DNA from: Giesbergeria anulus
GTDB lineage: Bacteria; Pseudomonadota; Gammaproteobacteria; Burkholderiales; Burkholderiaceae_C
DNA: 64,000 bases
Direction: 5' to 3'
NCBI RefSeq assembly: GCF_900111115.1
Contig: NZ_FOGD01000001.1
Span: 304,910 to 368,909, forward strand
Below are positions 1 to 8,213 of this stretch, in pieces. The position numbers were made by a program, and so were the translations under genes. Each line of letters starts with the position of its first letter. Position 1 is the first letter of the stretch. The notes under the pieces were generated by a model. That model ran no database searches and was not told the origin of the DNA. It saw only the letters and a program-made list of their open reading frames with translations.

Positions 1-28
1 TTTCTAAGCTGCCTATGCGGCAGAAAAC
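1..28 (-). CRISPR. Type I-F CRISPR repeat (leader-proximal, array runs off left edge)
   Basis: A 28-nt type I-F repeat begins exactly at the window edge. Read on the minus strand it starts GTTTTCTGCC and ends CTTAGAAA. The 5-bp hairpin CTGCC/GGCAG around a 5-nt loop is the stem bound and cut by Cas6f. Only this one repeat is visible. Its orientation and the leader beside it make it the first repeat, so spacers and further repeats should lie left of the window. The array is read in the same direction as the cas genes. Confidence 0.9.
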
Positions 29-1813: not shown

Positions 1814-2932
1814 TCAGTGGGAAACGGGTTCGGAATAGTGTGAGGAGTTGTCGTAACCAGCGTCATAGTCGTCGGATAGTTCGGGGCTGTGCTCCGTGGT
1901 CGGCTTATAAGCATTACGGCAGCGGTACAAACCTTGGGTTTGATGGGTTTCGGTGCGCCATAGCAGTTGCTCCAGATGGTCAAGCCGGTGCGGGCTGACC
2001 CACTCGCCCAAGGAGTAAACCGCCTCGACAAAACGCACGGGTACGGTGTTGTCGCGGGCATTGCCCACGGTACCGGGGGCATGCTGCTCAGACAGGGCTG
2101 CATAGCCCACCGGAATGGGCACGATCCAGCCACTGCGGGGGCCACGCAGAGGGTCAACCCACGGTACTTTTTTCTCGGATTTGTCTTGGTGGTGCTCAGA
2201 CGCTGGTGCGGCGGTGTCTGCTGGTGCAGAAGGTGCTGGCTCGTAGTTGAAACGGCTAGCGTGCAGCCAAGCATCCAATAAAGTGGTTTTTGGCTCTTTT
2301 TCTTTCAATACAGCCAAGCGCTCGGCCAACAAATCATCACGCGCCACTAAAGCAAAACCGGGCAACCACTGGCGTCGCCAGTGTCGCCATTGCTGGTCAC
2401 GCTGCTCGGCATCTTCTGGCAATACGGCCATCCAAGGGCGCTGGCGTCGGCCAGGAGCCGCGCGTGAAGGCAGTAAGCTGCCTCCGGCCACGCGCATTTG
2501 CGACAAAATTTGCCCCGCTGCATCAGCCCATTGCTGCATGGTTTCTTCACTGCCTTGCACCAAGGTGGGTGCTGCCGTAGCAGGGGTGGTTTCTGACACT
2601 GTAAACACCAGCGTGACATCAAGATGGATGCGGCCTTCTTCCACAATGGCGGTGGTACTGCCATCTTTGTCCACCGGGTTGCGGGTGAGGTGGAAAGTAT
2701 GCACAAAGCCCGGTGCCACCTGCTCTTGGTGGTGGTGGCAAATGACCCCCACTTGGTGCAAATGTAAAGGGATATGGGCTTGGGCCAGTTTGCGCTCTAG
2801 CGCCCACATCAAGCCGGTAAAGGCGGTGATGGCAGGAAAGCCATGCGTGAGCGGACTGGAGATAGCATTGGCGTTTTGCACACGCAGGTGCGGAAACACC
2901 AGCATGGCTTGGGGAGTGTGCGACAAGCTCAT
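1814..2932 (-). CDS. csy2: Cas5f (Csy2) crRNA 5'-handle-binding subunit
   Basis: Csy2 pairs with Csy1 at the foot of the Csy complex and holds the 8-nt crRNA 5' handle. The N-terminus (AMLVFPHLRVQNANAISSPL, then GFPAITAFTGLMWALERKL) is typical of the family. The start ATG overlaps the csy1 stop (ATGA), indicating translational coupling. At 372 aa it seems longer than the roughly 330 aa I recall for Pseudomonas Csy2. The extra residues fall in a hydrophilic insert (about 230-260, SAPADTAAPASEHHQDKSEKK) and in an acidic Tyr/Ser-rich tail. Whether these are lineage-specific loops is not known. Confidence 0.94.
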   Translation of the reverse strand: MSLSHTPQAMLVFPHLRVQNANAISSPLTHGFPAITAFTGLMWALERKLAQAHIPLHLHQVGVICHHHQEQVAPGFVHTFHLTRNPVDKDGSTTAIVEEGRIHLDVTLVFTVSETTPATAAPTLVQGSEETMQQWADAAGQILSQMRVAGGSLLPSRAAPGRRQRPWMAVLPEDAEQRDQQWRHWRRQWLPGFALVARDDLLAERLAVLKEKEPKTTLLDAWLHASRFNYEPAPSAPADTAAPASEHHQDKSEKKVPWVDPLRGPRSGWIVPIPVGYAALSEQHAPGTVGNARDNTVPVRFVEAVYSLGEWVSPHRLDHLEQLLWRTETHQTQGLYRCRNAYKPTTEHSPELSDDYDAGYDNSSHYSEPVSH

Positions 2933-4347
2933 GGCATTTCTCCGCGTTGTTGCATTGGTTCTATTAGTTTTTCATGGGTTGGGCGGATAGGGATGTAATG
3001 CGGAGCATCGAGCCGTTCGCGTAGCTCGCGCAGTTGTTGCTTGAAGCCGTCTTCGTCAGTCAGTAAGGCTTTTTTCCATTCTCTGGCTTCGGCATCACCT
3101 ACGGGCCATTGGCCTTTCAGTTCATCATTGAGCCAATTGGCAAAGCGCTTACCTACCTCGGCAGGCCAGTCCATTTGCAACCACTCTTGGGCAAAATCGG
3201 CTTCTGGTGGGAGTTCAGCGCGCAGGGGGTCAAGCCAGAGTTGCTCTGCACGCACCAATTTTTGAAAACGCTTTTCCGAGTCCACTGTTGGACTAGTCCA
3301 GCCTGCTGGCATGGTTTGCACTAACTCGCCAGACAGCGATACCAGCTCATCCAATAGCGTATCGAGATATGCTTGGCGGCGCTGGCGGGTTTCTTGATTG
3401 GGCGTGGGGTCAGAGGCTAGGAATTGGCGCAACTGGCGCAGTGTTTTTCGTACTTCTGGCCGGGCCGGAAAAACACGATTAAACACCGAATCGTTATGCA
3501 CGGGCAGCCGGGCCGCACTGGCTCGCCATACCGGTGGCAATGAGGCTAACAGGTAATTGGTACCGCCGCGTTCGCTATTGAGCTGACTAATATTCTGTGG
3601 CTTCGTGCCACCCATTTTTTGTACAGCCAGCCCAGAGTAGTCGTGAAAAACTCCCGCATGGGCTTTGTGCGCGTGGCATGCCTGCCGGGCGGCCTTGTTG
3701 GCCTCACCAAAGCGGTGCTCTTGGATTTGTGCATGGACAACATGGGCCAGCGAAGTAGGAAACAACGGTGCCAGCAACTCGTAGTGGCTATCCACACATG
3801 GATCGCTATCGGTAAGCCAGTACAACTGCTTGGCCAGCGGGTGAGAACTGGGGCCTGTGGTGCGTGGTTGCGCAAGTGCAACAAAGGCATCGCGCAAAGC
3901 TTTTGCCTGCATCGGATCGTCATGTAGCGCTTGCGTAGCGCACTCATCTTCAGCCAGCAGTGCAGCAAGCAAACTAGAGTTTTCCAACTCTAATCGCAAA
4001 AATTTGTAAACATCTAAGGCTGCTGCATTGCCGACCACATCGCTCGCAAAAGCCGACCCCAGCGCATGGCTGCCCAACACCTCCTGTGTTGGTAGCTTGC
4101 CTGGCTCTATGTATAGATTAGTGCCTCGGGCATCGGGGTGGATTGGTTTGAGGGAATGGGTGACTGCTTGGATTTGTACCACCCGTTTGGCTGCATTCTC
4201 AATCCATGCCCCATACTGGTGTTGTAGCAACAACTCTATGCGTTTCGGATCGTCGTCTTTAAGCTTGTCGAGCTTGGCATCCAGCCGTTCTTGGATGAAG
4301 GCTGCAATGACTGCATGCCACAGCAAACGCTGTTCAGTGAGGGGCAT
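2929..4347 (-). CDS. csy1: Cas8f (Csy1) large subunit of the Csy complex
   Basis: Csy1 recognises the CC/GG PAM and, with Csy2, caps the crRNA 5' end. It is recognised mainly by operon position and by family-like segments such as AAKRVVQIQAVTHSLKPIHPDA, GGTKPQNISQLNSERGG and LPPVWRA. I take ATG 4347 (472 aa, MPLTEQRLLW) as the start because AGAGGA lies 6 nt upstream. An in-frame GTG at 4374 would add 9 residues without a better ribosome site. It is the first gene of the csy1-4 operon. Its likely promoter at 4391-4417 overlaps the target of the divergent crRNA-like RNA, so it is probably subject to Csy-mediated autorepression. Confidence 0.94.
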   Translation of the reverse strand: MPLTEQRLLWHAVIAAFIQERLDAKLDKLKDDDPKRIELLLQHQYGAWIENAAKRVVQIQAVTHSLKPIHPDARGTNLYIEPGKLPTQEVLGSHALGSAFASDVVGNAAALDVYKFLRLELENSSLLAALLAEDECATQALHDDPMQAKALRDAFVALAQPRTTGPSSHPLAKQLYWLTDSDPCVDSHYELLAPLFPTSLAHVVHAQIQEHRFGEANKAARQACHAHKAHAGVFHDYSGLAVQKMGGTKPQNISQLNSERGGTNYLLASLPPVWRASAARLPVHNDSVFNRVFPARPEVRKTLRQLRQFLASDPTPNQETRQRRQAYLDTLLDELVSLSGELVQTMPAGWTSPTVDSEKRFQKLVRAEQLWLDPLRAELPPEADFAQEWLQMDWPAEVGKRFANWLNDELKGQWPVGDAEAREWKKALLTDEDGFKQQLRELRERLDAPHYIPIRPTHEKLIEPMQQRGEMP

Positions 4348-4388
4348 ATCGGTTCCTCTGTTGGTATGAGGCACCAGCTTACTTCAAT

Positions 4389-4401
4389 CCATGATACTTA
4401 G
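4389..4401 (+). promoter_or_regulatory. CC-PAM plus seed target for the crRNA-like RNA in the csy1 promoter
   Basis: CC (4389-4390) is the type I-F PAM and is followed by ATGATACTTAG (4391-4401). The first 11 spacer-like bases of the mini-array are ATGATGCTTAG. They match at all positions except position 6, the base that is flipped out and tolerated in type I crRNA-target duplexes. Matching stops at position 12. A short seed-only match should allow Csy binding without recruiting Cas3 cleavage. The site is about 42 nt upstream of the csy1 ATG and overlaps the putative -10. Confidence 0.7.
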
Positions 4402-4417
4402 AGAAGTCATATTACAA
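4391..4417 (-). promoter_or_regulatory. Putative csy1-4 operon promoter
   Basis: On the minus strand a -10-like TATCAT (4396-4391) lies downstream of a -35-like TTGTAA (4417-4412) with a short 15-nt spacer. A start near 4384 would leave about 37 nt before the csy1 ATG at 4347, including its AGAGGA ribosome site. The -10 fits well and the -35 is weak. The element coincides with the PAM-flanked target of the mini-array RNA. Confidence 0.45.
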
Positions 4418-4426
4418 TCGGACACA

Positions 4427-4505
4427 TCTATCTGCTGTGTAAGCAGCTTAGAAAATGATGCTTAGGAGCATCTTTGCTCTTTTTCTTTTTCTGCCGAATA
4501 GGCAG
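4427..4505 (+). ncRNA. CreR-like mini-CRISPR RNA between cas3 and csy1
   Basis: Two degenerate copies of the array repeat flank a 31-nt spacer-like segment (4455-4485). The first copy (4427-4454) matches the true repeat at 21 of 28 positions. Its stem carries a compensatory change (CTGCT/AGCAG instead of CTGCC/GGCAG), and the 8-nt handle CTTAGAAA is perfect. The second (4486-4505) matches 18 of the first 20 repeat bases, with an intact CTGCC/GGCAG stem, but loses the handle. Cas6f cutting after each stem would release a 59-nt RNA, the size of an I-F crRNA. The spacer seed matches the csy1 promoter, so the inferred role is to guide the Csy complex to repress its own operon, as reported for CreR RNAs of other subtypes. 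It is transcribed divergently from csy1; TACAAT at 4413-4418 could be its -10. Confidence 0.75.
4464..4490 (+). terminator. Terminator-like hairpin inside the mini-array spacer
   Basis: GAGCA (4466-4470) and TGCTC (4475-4479) pair around TCTT, extendable by a G-U and an A-U pair. A run of nine T interrupted by one C follows. This resembles an intrinsic terminator and begins exactly where the seed match ends. It could stop transcription before the second repeat and give a short seed-plus-hairpin RNA. The stem is short, so efficiency is uncertain. Confidence 0.4.
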
Positions 4506-4567
4506 TCATGCACTAAAGCCCTTACATCACATCCCCCGCTAGGAGTTGCAACACGATCCAAAACGGT

Positions 4568-4726
4568 ATGCGCCCGGTACACCCCGGCGAAGTTCTGCGC
4601 GCAGACTATCTCACGCCCATAAGCATGAGCATGAGCGCCAGTGCGCTGGCGCGGTATCTCCACGTGCCAGCCTCGCGCATCCGATACTGCTCCATCCCGC
4701 CTAAGCGGTTTACTTGGCAGCCGTAA
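4568..4726 (+). pseudogene. Truncated HigA-like antitoxin relic
   Basis: An in-frame 52-codon stretch starts MRPVHPGEVLRADYL and continues to SALARYLHVPASRI. This is the N-terminus of the HigA/VapI XRE-type antitoxin family, which usually reads R(P/I)HPGE(V/I)L...ALA..L.VP..RI. After residue 38 the family similarity stops and the frame reads RYCSIPPKRFTWQP then stops. The second half of the helix-turn-helix domain is therefore missing. The 3' end overlaps the end of cas3 on the opposite strand. AGGAG lies about 22 nt upstream of the ATG, too far for a good ribosome site. No HigB toxin could be recognised upstream. It is probably a relic of a toxin-antitoxin module once sited in the cas3-csy1 gap. 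Confidence 0.7.
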
Positions 4727-7700
4727 AGCCTAGCGCCTCATGCCAGCGCCAGCCTTGCGTTTTATCCGGCAGGGTGGCGGTGGCGTACCTCTGCGCGCAC
4801 TGCAACAGGGATAAATCTTTGCTTTGCGCCAAACTGACCAATTCTTCTAGCAAATTAACCCGAATCCAAGGCGTGATGCTTCCTTGCACCGCCAAGGGCA
4901 TACGGTGCAGCAGGCTTTCTACTGCCGAATACAAAGATTCACCGCGCCGCTGACCATCCACCACCCGGTGCAGGGTAAGGCGTTCTTCATCGTCATCGGG
5001 CAGAAAAACCACATCGACCCGTGGCACGGGGTCATAACGAAAGCGCTGGTACTGGGGCAGCAACCCCGTTAGCCATAGCTTTTCACTGCTGCTCCAGTGC
5101 AGGCTGGCTGCACGGCCTACCGGTGTGGCGGTGGCATGGGCCCCACTGCGTGGCAGCATAGCGTCGTGCATACGGGCGTGCTCCAAATCCACCAAGTTTT
5201 TGCTGGGGTGCAATTTCTCGGCAGCAGCTATTCTGGGGCGGGCATCTATAGGCCAGCACACCGCACCTTGGGTCTGTGGGTGCAGCAGCGCTTGCAAAGC
5301 GTGGGATTGCAGATGGAAATGCCGCGCTACGTCGTTTGGGTCGTTCACTTTATCGAGTTCAAACCCCGGTTTGCAAAATGCGGCCTCGCCCGGGTGCTCA
5401 TAAGCGCGCAAATTGGTATCGAGCAGCAACACGTTGGCCCCATCCACTGCGCCAGCACGATGGCGACGTACACGGCCCGCCAATTGGATCAATGAGCGCA
5501 TCGAAGACGGCTCGACCACCGCCCAGTCATAGTCGTGGTCACGGCCTACTTCGGTGACAGGGCTGCCCAAAACGATAAACAGTTGGTTCTTTTCTGGATG
5601 GACATCTATCAGCTTTCGGATGGCAGGCTGCTGAAGAAGGGGATCGGTGCTGCCAGTAGCTGCGCGGCGGTTGAGCAGGGTATCGAGCTGGTGCTCCATG
5701 CTAGAGCGTGTGAGCAATGGAAACTGGGAGTGATAAACGCACAAATGCACATGCACCCCCGGCACAGAGATACCTTGTTGGTACATGGCCAAAGCCACAT
5801 CGACCAGCGGCTCGATATTGGCCATGCGGATCAGGCCCACACTGATGCGCTTGCCACTGGCCGGGTCTAGGCTATGGTTGTGTGATTTTTGGTGCAACTG
5901 CCATGCACACTCCAGCACGAACCGGGCAAAATCGGTGCGCCGCAGCGCAGCATCATCCATGCCACTCCACTCTGCAGGCAATAGCCCAATTTGCGCACGG
6001 CGGCGTACTTCGGCTTTGGCTAATTGAGCGCTGCGCTTTTGCACATACTGTGCATGGCTGGCCCAAAAAGTAGAGCCATCTGGACAATCCAATGCTGTTT
6101 GGTGAAACTCATCTACCCAGAGGCAACAGACTTGGGGCACCTCGCTAGGGCGATCACTGCGGTGCTGCTGGAATACTTTGCGCCCCGCTTGGTAGGCCAA
6201 AAACAGCCCTTCTAACAGCGCCGGAGGCAAGGTGGCCGACGATAACAGCACCCGCGCCCCCAACAGTCCGGCCCAATGCACCAGCCGCGTGAGGGCGGGC
6301 AGGTCGGCCATATCAAAGTCATCCGGTTCGTCCAGTACTAAATCGCCCGTCATGAGCCGCAACATGGGAGCAATCTGTCGGCCTCCGCGCAGGCTTTCGG
6401 TGGCGGGGGTTAGGTGATCGACGGTGCAAACAAGCAGGGGTGCAGCAATTAAGGAGCGTACTTGAGGGTCGCTACTGAGGCGTTCCACCAGTGGGTGGCG
6501 GTCATTGCCTTCAAACAGAACCTGTCCGCCCTCATCGAGCAAGGCTTGGCTCGAAGCCGAGCCGGTGGCCTCAGCTTGGGCCTCCCAGTGTTCAAACAGC
6601 GCCCGATTGGCGCTGCCACCCACTTTGATGGCTAACTGGTCATCGCCCAGCCCCAAATCATGCTGAAACACGCGCCCAGTTTGTAAAGTGAGCGTGCGCA
6701 AACCAATGGCGAAAGCACAGCGCAACCCCACCTGCGGATCGGCCAGTGCATTCATGATGCGGGCATTGCCCAGCGTTTTGCCACAGCCGGTAGAGGCCAT
6801 ATTGACGATAAAGGCCCCTTGGGAGGCGCTGCGATGGCGCACACTGGCGGCCAAATCGGCGGCCTTGTCTTGCCATTGAAACCGCGTATCGGTGTTGCGT
6901 TTTTTCAAACCGCGATGGTTTTGCAATGCAGGCAGGCTGCGTACCAACGATGGTAAGGAGCGAGCCACCAAGGTAGCATGGGCCTGCACACCCAGCAAGT
7001 GCTCATCAAGCGTCTGGTTAAAAATTGGCCCGTTGCGTTGGCTTTTCTGGCCCCCTGTTGTGAGATTTTTACTGGTATTGGCATACAGCCGATAGCCAAG
7101 ACTGAGATAGGGCTTGCGGCGCTCCGCGTCTTCAATGCTGGAATAATGGTGGTCAGCCAACATCAGGCACAAGCGCGAGACGTGCATGGCAAACGGATCG
7201 TGCAACACCTGTATTGGGGTAGGCAACTGCGCCAGCTCGAGCAACTTTTGGGCATAGCGTGCCGCCTGTTTGCGCCAAAGCATCATGACCACAGGCAACC
7301 CGTACGGAAAACTCCAATGCGCGCGCACCGTGGCATCGTTGCTAGTTTCGCGCGGTTCATTCCAATCGGCAGTGATGAGCTGCAACAGGGCTTGCAACTC
7401 TCGTTGATTGATAAAACGAGGATGCGCACCAAACCGGCAATATTGATTTTGCGGCAGGTCGATGTCCTCCTCACTGCTTCCATCCAACTTTCTGACCGGC
7501 AGACAAGGCAGCCGGTGGTGGGTGAGTACCAGCCACGCCACGGCTTGCGCCAGCGGCGGCATAGAAGCAAATGGATTGTTTTGTGGTGGTTGTGCAGACG
7601 CATCCAGCCCATCGCGCAACAAGCGCGCGCATTGGTGGTCTAACCACAATGCTTCAAAGGCTTTCGTGTCTAATGCCGCATCACTACAGGCGGCCAATCG

Positions 7701-8213
7701 TCGTAGCCAGCCCGCATCATCATCCTTTCCGACAAAAGCCTGAAACAGCCGTACCGAGACCCATTCATGCCGATAGAGGTTGCGTTCGCGCAGGTTGGGC
7801 TTACGCAGCCGATCCTGAAACGCCTGAGTGGCTTTTCCCAGATCATGCAGCAAGGCGGCCAAAGCAGAAAGGGCCGTGATTAGCGGCAGATGATGCCAAG
7901 TGTTTTCATCGTCGGCACGCAATACATCATTAGCGGTGGTGTTGGTAGGCACTGCACCTTCGGCATTGAACTGGCGGCCATCCCCCACCACCCAGAGTAA
8001 TTCACTGTGGTCTTTGCCGTGTATCCAATGGCAAGCAATGGCCGTGTTTTTGCGTGCCGTTTGGCGCAGCAGCTTGCGTACTGTCTCCAATCCGGCTTGG
8101 GTGATGGGAGTTTGCCAAGTTCTATCACCCCGGCGTTCGGCAAACTGATCCAAAATACGGCGGGTTTCGGTCAATGCCCGTTTGCTGCATTGTGAAATAA
8201 ACAGCACATTCAT
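4710..8213 (-). CDS. cas3: Cas2-Cas3 fusion (type I-F Cas3 nuclease-helicase)
   Basis: This protein degrades targeted DNA and, through its Cas2 part, forms the integration complex with Cas1. The 1167-aa sequence has an N-terminal Cas2-like domain (about 1-95, MNVLFISQCSKRALTETRRI). The HD nuclease follows (H123-D124 in ALLHDLGK, and YRHEW). The SF2 helicase has Walker A STGCGKT near residue 473, a DEPD box near 628 and LSSATLPP. The ARGRVRRH-like motif VI appears as QLAGRVRRHR. The start overlaps the cas1 stop by ATGA. The gene is separated from csy1 by a 362-bp gap holding the mini-array and higA relic, so the csy genes need their own promoter. All key motifs are intact. Confidence 0.96.
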   Translation of the reverse strand: MNVLFISQCSKRALTETRRILDQFAERRGDRTWQTPITQAGLETVRKLLRQTARKNTAIACHWIHGKDHSELLWVVGDGRQFNAEGAVPTNTTANDVLRADDENTWHHLPLITALSALAALLHDLGKATQAFQDRLRKPNLRERNLYRHEWVSVRLFQAFVGKDDDAGWLRRLAACSDAALDTKAFEALWLDHQCARLLRDGLDASAQPPQNNPFASMPPLAQAVAWLVLTHHRLPCLPVRKLDGSSEEDIDLPQNQYCRFGAHPRFINQRELQALLQLITADWNEPRETSNDATVRAHWSFPYGLPVVMMLWRKQAARYAQKLLELAQLPTPIQVLHDPFAMHVSRLCLMLADHHYSSIEDAERRKPYLSLGYRLYANTSKNLTTGGQKSQRNGPIFNQTLDEHLLGVQAHATLVARSLPSLVRSLPALQNHRGLKKRNTDTRFQWQDKAADLAASVRHRSASQGAFIVNMASTGCGKTLGNARIMNALADPQVGLRCAFAIGLRTLTLQTGRVFQHDLGLGDDQLAIKVGGSANRALFEHWEAQAEATGSASSQALLDEGGQVLFEGNDRHPLVERLSSDPQVRSLIAAPLLVCTVDHLTPATESLRGGRQIAPMLRLMTGDLVLDEPDDFDMADLPALTRLVHWAGLLGARVLLSSATLPPALLEGLFLAYQAGRKVFQQHRSDRPSEVPQVCCLWVDEFHQTALDCPDGSTFWASHAQYVQKRSAQLAKAEVRRRAQIGLLPAEWSGMDDAALRRTDFARFVLECAWQLHQKSHNHSLDPASGKRISVGLIRMANIEPLVDVALAMYQQGISVPGVHVHLCVYHSQFPLLTRSSMEHQLDTLLNRRAATGSTDPLLQQPAIRKLIDVHPEKNQLFIVLGSPVTEVGRDHDYDWAVVEPSSMRSLIQLAGRVRRHRAGAVDGANVLLLDTNLRAYEHPGEAAFCKPGFELDKVNDPNDVARHFHLQSHALQALLHPQTQGAVCWPIDARPRIAAAEKLHPSKNLVDLEHARMHDAMLPRSGAHATATPVGRAASLHWSSSEKLWLTGLLPQYQRFRYDPVPRVDVVFLPDDDEERLTLHRVVDGQRRGESLYSAVESLLHRMPLAVQGSITPWIRVNLLEELVSLAQSKDLSLLQCAQRYATATLPDKTQGWRWHEALGFTAAK

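Follow-up and report, generated by a model that had tools for sequence, protein, structure and literature searches.

Locus organization

The window (the whole 64,000-nt stretch analysed) opens at the leader end of a type I-F CRISPR array and carries a Comamonadaceae type I-F system, with csy4, csy3, csy2, csy1, cas3f and cas1 on the minus strand, each recognized by an NCBIfam model. The csy1 start was picked by eye as the ATG at 4347, preceded by an SD-like AGAGGA, and a gap of 362 nt (4348–4709) separates cas3f from csy1 (Table 1). The array repeat, GTTTTCTGCCGCATAGGCAGCTTAGAAA, has 40 matches on the window's contig besides one ectopic match, and four on another contig. After its first repeat, the array (G000:C14, about 301790–304904, in L133) reads N for about 3.1 kb, which hides the leader-proximal spacers.

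The initial annotation had described two degenerate I-F repeats 31 nt apart in the cas3–csy1 gap, the first with a compensated stem and a perfect 8-nt handle and the second with the stem alone. Comparison with the array repeat confirmed both: the repeats, with cores CTGCTGTGTAAGCAG-CTTAGAAA at 4432–4454 and CTGCCGAATAGGCAG at 4491–4505, flank a 31-nt spacer on the plus strand, opposite to the cas genes. The stem of repeat 1 departs from the array repeat by a compensatory C-G to U-A change, and its handle, CTTAGAAA, is perfect. When up to three mismatches to the array repeat were allowed, the array repeat and 4432–4454 were the sole matches in the window, and 100 shuffles gave a mean of 0.00; the Rfam CRISPR-DR4 model scored 24.2 bits there (E = 0.005), below its gathering score of 35. 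Degenerate repeats thus lie outside the array and adjoin the cas genes, as expected of a CreR. A type I-F guide takes its 5′ handle from the first repeat and its 3′ stem from the second; a handle kept in repeat 1 and lost in repeat 2 therefore matches the needs of one single guide. A second small array elsewhere in the genome (G000:C12:29299–29501) has four repeats and a loop, GTGTA, equal to that of the element's repeat 1.

The spacer also contains a terminator-like hairpin with a T run, which could end the transcript ahead of repeat 2 or substitute for that repeat's 3′ stem. Similar sequence occurs in the relative Giesbergeria L017.

Table 1 Features of the cas3–csy1 gap and its flanks (window coordinates)
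Feature	Position	Strand	Basis
Type I-F array, first repeat	1–28	-	Sequence search
csy1 (cas8f), first gene of csy1–csy4	2929–4347	-	NCBIfam TIGR02564, E = 2.8e-110 on ORF 2929–4374
CC PAM of predicted CreR target	4389–4390	+	Sequence
Predicted CreR target seed, protospacer positions 1–11, single exact genome copy	4391–4401	+	Pairing scan and genome search
Putative csy1 -10 box TATCAT (csy1 strand), within target	4391–4396	-	Sequence
Promoter-like site for creR, ATGATA-16-TACAAT, 9 of 12, overlapping target	4391–4418	+	Promoter scan
Degenerate repeat 1, compensated stem and intact 8-nt handle (4447–4454)	4427–4454	+	Sequence, mismatch search, Rfam
Candidate CreR spacer, 31 nt	4455–4485	+	Sequence
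Terminator-like hairpin and T run within spacer	4464–4489	+	Terminator/hairpin scan
Degenerate repeat 2, stem intact (4491–4505), handle lost	4486–4513	+	Sequence
higA antitoxin remnant, N-terminal 41 aa and C-terminal scrap	4556–4701	+	TIGR02607, E = 3.4e-8, below cut-off
cas3f (cas2-3), upstream neighbour of the gap	4710–8213	-	TIGR02562

The spacer start matches a unique site next to csy1

The start of the spacer, ATGATGCTTAG, matches CC-ATGATACTTAG at 4389–4401 with a sole mismatch at position 6, so that a PAM and seed match lies beside a cas gene start, as in CreR systems; the distance from the target to the csy1 ATG is 43 nt. This match, including its CC PAM and lone mismatch, had been noted before and proved unique in the 3.42-Mb genome, where the 13-mer with any base at position 6 occurs exactly once and five further sites have one mismatch. 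Other strong targets for the guide were sought in the genome and rejected, the csy1 site alone being exact. Permuted spacer starts reached 10/10 at any of the gap's 52 CC sites in 2 of 100,000 trials. Once up to two mismatches are tolerated, the 13-mer turns up in the window about as often as expected (four found versus 3.69 expected); what carries weight is therefore the exactness of the match, where it lies and its conservation.

The initial annotation also held that the target overlaps the likely csy1 promoter. Here the TATCAT motif and its position fit, and TATNAT was read by eye on the csy1 strand under the target in 10 of the 12 short-distance loci described below, but the promoter scan called no csy1 promoter at the target, and the csy1 -35 is weak. 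We infer from motif and position that the target site is the putative csy1 promoter. A promoter-like site for creR overlapping the target is itself weak, with one found versus 0.5 expected in shuffles.

Element and target recur in related I-F loci

We gathered 116 csy1-bearing loci (six from a set of same-genus relatives, 80 of 87 matches and 30 of 44 matches), oriented them by tblastn and removed 14 as duplicates or near copies, leaving 102 distinct I-F csy1 loci; since some of these are related to one another, the counts are not independent. A strict repeat-like element opposite to cas was present in 45 of the 102, and 40 of these 45 had a CC-flanked target matching at least 9/11. In all 40 the order was csy1, target, repeat, and a second stem-loop was present (stem 5/5 in 39, 4/5 in L063). 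The five remaining strict-element loci were L037, L026, L040, L081 and L126, among which L037 (S. hankyongi) had a TC PAM and a 9/11 match only.

We then ran a looser pair scan on those remaining loci, 40 in all, whose gap was 100 nt or longer or of unknown length. Pairs were found in 17, of which 14 stood behind a repeat-like handle, compared with 4 of 200 mononucleotide shuffles; the pairs lacking such a handle were in L081, L083 and L126. Together, the 40 loci, L037 and the 14 additional loci give accepted element–target pairs in 55 of 102. No accepted pair was seen in the other 47 of the 102 surveyed loci, which indicates that the device is dispensable.

This recurrence bears on whether the element is a phage-type RNA anti-CRISPR (Racr) or a stray array fragment that merely mimics a repeat. 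According to the available portion of one report, Racrs are virus-encoded solitary repeat mimics (PMC10651486), but the element keeps its position in the cas operon from genus to genus and has a matching target on its csy1 side, which renders such an origin highly improbable. A stray array fragment or chance was likewise rejected on the conserved targets.

Seed pairing is kept while guide and target change

Across the 40 loci, the per-position match frequency was 0.97–1.0 at positions 1–5, 0.17 at position 6 and 0.93–1.0 at positions 7–11, followed by 0.30 at position 12, 0.68–0.85 at 13–17, 0.25 at 18, 0.55 at 19 and 0.20–0.45 at 20–24. The selection score took in positions 1–5 and 7–12; positions 13–24 lay outside it, which makes the dips at 12 and 18 informative. 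Cascade flips out bases 6, 12 and 18, and the dips at 12 and 18 fit the flipped bases. Taken as a set, these natural guide–target pairs are an evolutionary record of the way in which Csy reads DNA, and the bases that it leaves unread (the 6th, 12th and 18th) can be seen in the genomes themselves.

The distance from the target to the projected csy1 start was 19–59 nt in 12 of the 40 loci, 75–149 nt in four, 218–286 nt in 23 and 611 nt in one. All ten seed positions (1–5 and 7–11) match in 12/12 short-distance loci, a set preselected at a match of at least 9/11 and including near relatives (L022 with L027; the window with L017). Seed positions 3, 4, 7, 8, 9, 10 and 11 vary among these loci, and matches at positions 6, 12 and 18 occur in only one, two and one of the 12, respectively. 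Guides compared with the targets of other short-distance loci matched on average 6.6 of 10 positions, reaching 10 in 14 of 132 comparisons. Between the window and Giesbergeria L017, whose csy1 is 85% identical, spacer positions 10–11 differ and the target differs likewise. Pairing is thus kept while both partners change, as expected of a CreR; the conservation in relatives that the initial annotation had proposed to look for holds across the 12 loci and in this paired change.

Guide lengths were also constrained. Spacers in the 40 loci cluster at 14, 18–21, 24–27 and 30–32 nt, and 15 further elements fall in the same length classes; none of the 55 spacers has a length of 4 or 5 modulo 6 (residues 0–3 only). 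Rayleigh p for period 6 was about 5e-9 for the 55 spacers (nominal, with relatedness ignored), and for the first 40 it was 1e-6, versus 0.00015 for period 7. The most economical reading would be that guides come in whole Csy3 footprints.

Short and long target distances

In a CreTA toxin–antitoxin, the RNA would be an antitoxin repressing a toxic small RNA, creT, encoded between the target and csy1. The gap, orientation, PAM and order all correspond to the I-F CreTA described in the available text of PMC10097628, and in many relatives the target lies 218–286 nt upstream of csy1, and, of the 24 loci whose target is at least 218 nt away, 15 show a creT-like, SD-led mini-ORF about 99–139 nt beyond the target (a count without a chance control). 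Several of these long-form mini-ORFs have two AGA or AGG arginine codons, and the long form (218–286 nt) resembles the published Acinetobacter I-F CreTA.

The window differs. No SD-led mini-ORF was found between target and csy1 in any of the 12 short-distance loci, window included, and CreR therefore fits them better than CreTA, although this absence is nearly forced by an interval of just 19–59 nt. We accordingly rejected CreTA for the window, where no creT-like ORF lies downstream of the target; a toxin lacking an ORF is possible, and the CreTA reading as a whole is quite unlikely. By predicted architecture, the short form, window included, fits CreR, and L021 is probably an additional short form.

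We also considered a single origin of the CreR form. It was not supported: CreR-type and CreTA-type loci interdigitate (for example, L051 with L020 and L037 with L039) in a rapidly built csy1 tree with 98 rows, SH-aLRT support only and long branches flagged. The site offers a model for the interchange of an RNA toxin guard and a self-regulator.

Protein toxin–antitoxin genes share the gap

The gap in the window carries, or carried, a protein toxin–antitoxin pair, of which a higA remnant is left (E = 0.069 for its C-terminal scrap). In eight of the 12 short-distance loci, higB and higA lie between cas3 and creR, antisense to cas, and in L030 their place is taken by a BrnT toxin and a CopG-like partner (the partner below the Pfam cut-off). 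The creR transcript would run towards the protein toxin–antitoxin pair in 9/12 (HigBA in eight, BrnT/CopG-like in one). No higBA was seen in the gap of L031 or L057 (cas3 was not found in L057), and in L019 the gap measures 87 nt and just 22 aa from the C-terminus of higA remain, suggesting that this locus may have lost the cassette.

Other families occupy the gap elsewhere: MNT-HEPN in L044 (Pfam), with look-alikes by eye in L045, L054 and L058 and the MNT part only in L069; HicB-like proteins in L059 (Pfam) and, by eye, L063; a RelE-like protein in L075; and PIN in L095. The cas3–csy1 gap is a recurrent home of unrelated protein toxin–antitoxin families, antisense to cas. A second CreR target on the toxin–antitoxin side was sought over the 40 loci and rejected, the best sites reaching 3–7 of 10 seed matches.

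Signs of decay raise the question of whether the element is a dead relic of a CreTA or a CRISPR array and no longer acts: higA is truncated and higB was not found in the window, and the higB of Giesbergeria L017 has a premature stop. However, the element retains an intact handle, stem, PAM and seed, and where the window's seed departs from that of L017 the target departs in the same way, features that a relic would lose. A relic is accordingly improbable.

A putative Csy-guided autorepressor

On the comparative evidence, the element is very probably a type I-F creR, encoding a Csy-guided autorepressor of csy1–csy4. The CreR-type reading of the initial annotation thus gains support from the covarying seed and target and from the lack of a creT-like ORF.

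The following scheme, from promoter use and transcription through Csy4 processing to repression, de-repression and the response to anti-CRISPRs, is predicted from sequence. Transcribed divergently from csy1, creR would act as a two-repeat mini-CRISPR, with Csy4 cutting both stem-loops to release a crRNA-like RNA that has a normal 8-nt handle and is expected to begin CTTAGAAAATGATGC. Once loaded, the Csy complex would use a 5+5-nt seed to bind the CC-flanked site at the putative csy1 -10 box and block RNA polymerase; the pairing should not extend far enough for Cas3 to cut. Csy complex that is free would then keep csy1–csy4 transcription low, and ordinary crRNAs or anti-CRISPRs that draw the complex away would de-repress the operon. 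The complex probably limits creR as well, since the short region preceding repeat 1 also contains the target.

A broader proposal is more speculative, and we regard it as doubtful in its entirety: the I-F cas3–csy1 gap might be an exchangeable guard cassette. One Csy–CreR complex on overlapping divergent promoters would repress both csy1 and the creR transcript, and loss of Csy would raise cas and toxin–antitoxin expression together, so that the self-regulator would double as an addiction module based on protein; the slot would be occupied interchangeably by creT or by protein toxins, and guide length would grow by 6 nt for each whole Csy3.

Comparison with known systems

CreR is placed in types I-B, I-E and V-A by the available text of one review (PMC13131331) and in type I broadly and V-A by that of another (PMC12737573). 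In the accessible portions of these and a third paper, it is a crRNA-like RNA, usually toxin-free, that pairs partially with a cas promoter and whose autorepression senses crRNA load and anti-CRISPRs (PMC12737573, PMC13131331, PMC12948488). The element resembles CreR in its predicted crRNA-like RNA, in the predicted partial pairing of that RNA to a putative cas promoter and in lacking a creT-like ORF. It differs in belonging to type I-F, in lying in the cas3–csy1 gap on a putative internal csy promoter, and in having a protein toxin–antitoxin neighbour, with related loci holding CreTA in the same slot. Type I-F is much studied, yet within the open-licence literature (few subscription journals, no supplements) we found no report of a type I-F CreR or of RNA-guided feedback on the system's own effector operon; an earlier listing is possible.

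In CrePA, as outlined in the part of PMC12737573 available, the toxin repressed by CreA is a protein, CreP, which typically carries a KilA-N domain. The element shares a predicted crRNA-like RNA beside a protein toxin gene, but HigBA has its own antitoxin and its side offers no good CreR target. No KilA-N toxin gene carries the target; no KilA-N domain was present among ten gap proteins of relatives, and the window's gap holds the higA remnant only.

The closest published case is the I-F CreTA of Acinetobacter sp. WCHA45, whose CreA, in the same gap, represses its target promoter, an effect lost without csy4; the accessible text reports a 33-bp creT ORF after the target, states that pairing does not follow the canonical seed rule and mentions 19 further modules (PMC10097628). 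On that text, the two share gap, orientation, CC PAM, two degenerate repeats and Csy-guided repression (predicted for the window). In contrast, the window has no room for a 33-bp creT ORF and pairs as 5-x-5. Besides a CreR in type I-F, what is apparently new relative to these systems is the slot shared between forms, the protein toxin–antitoxin neighbours and the 6-nt steps in guide length.
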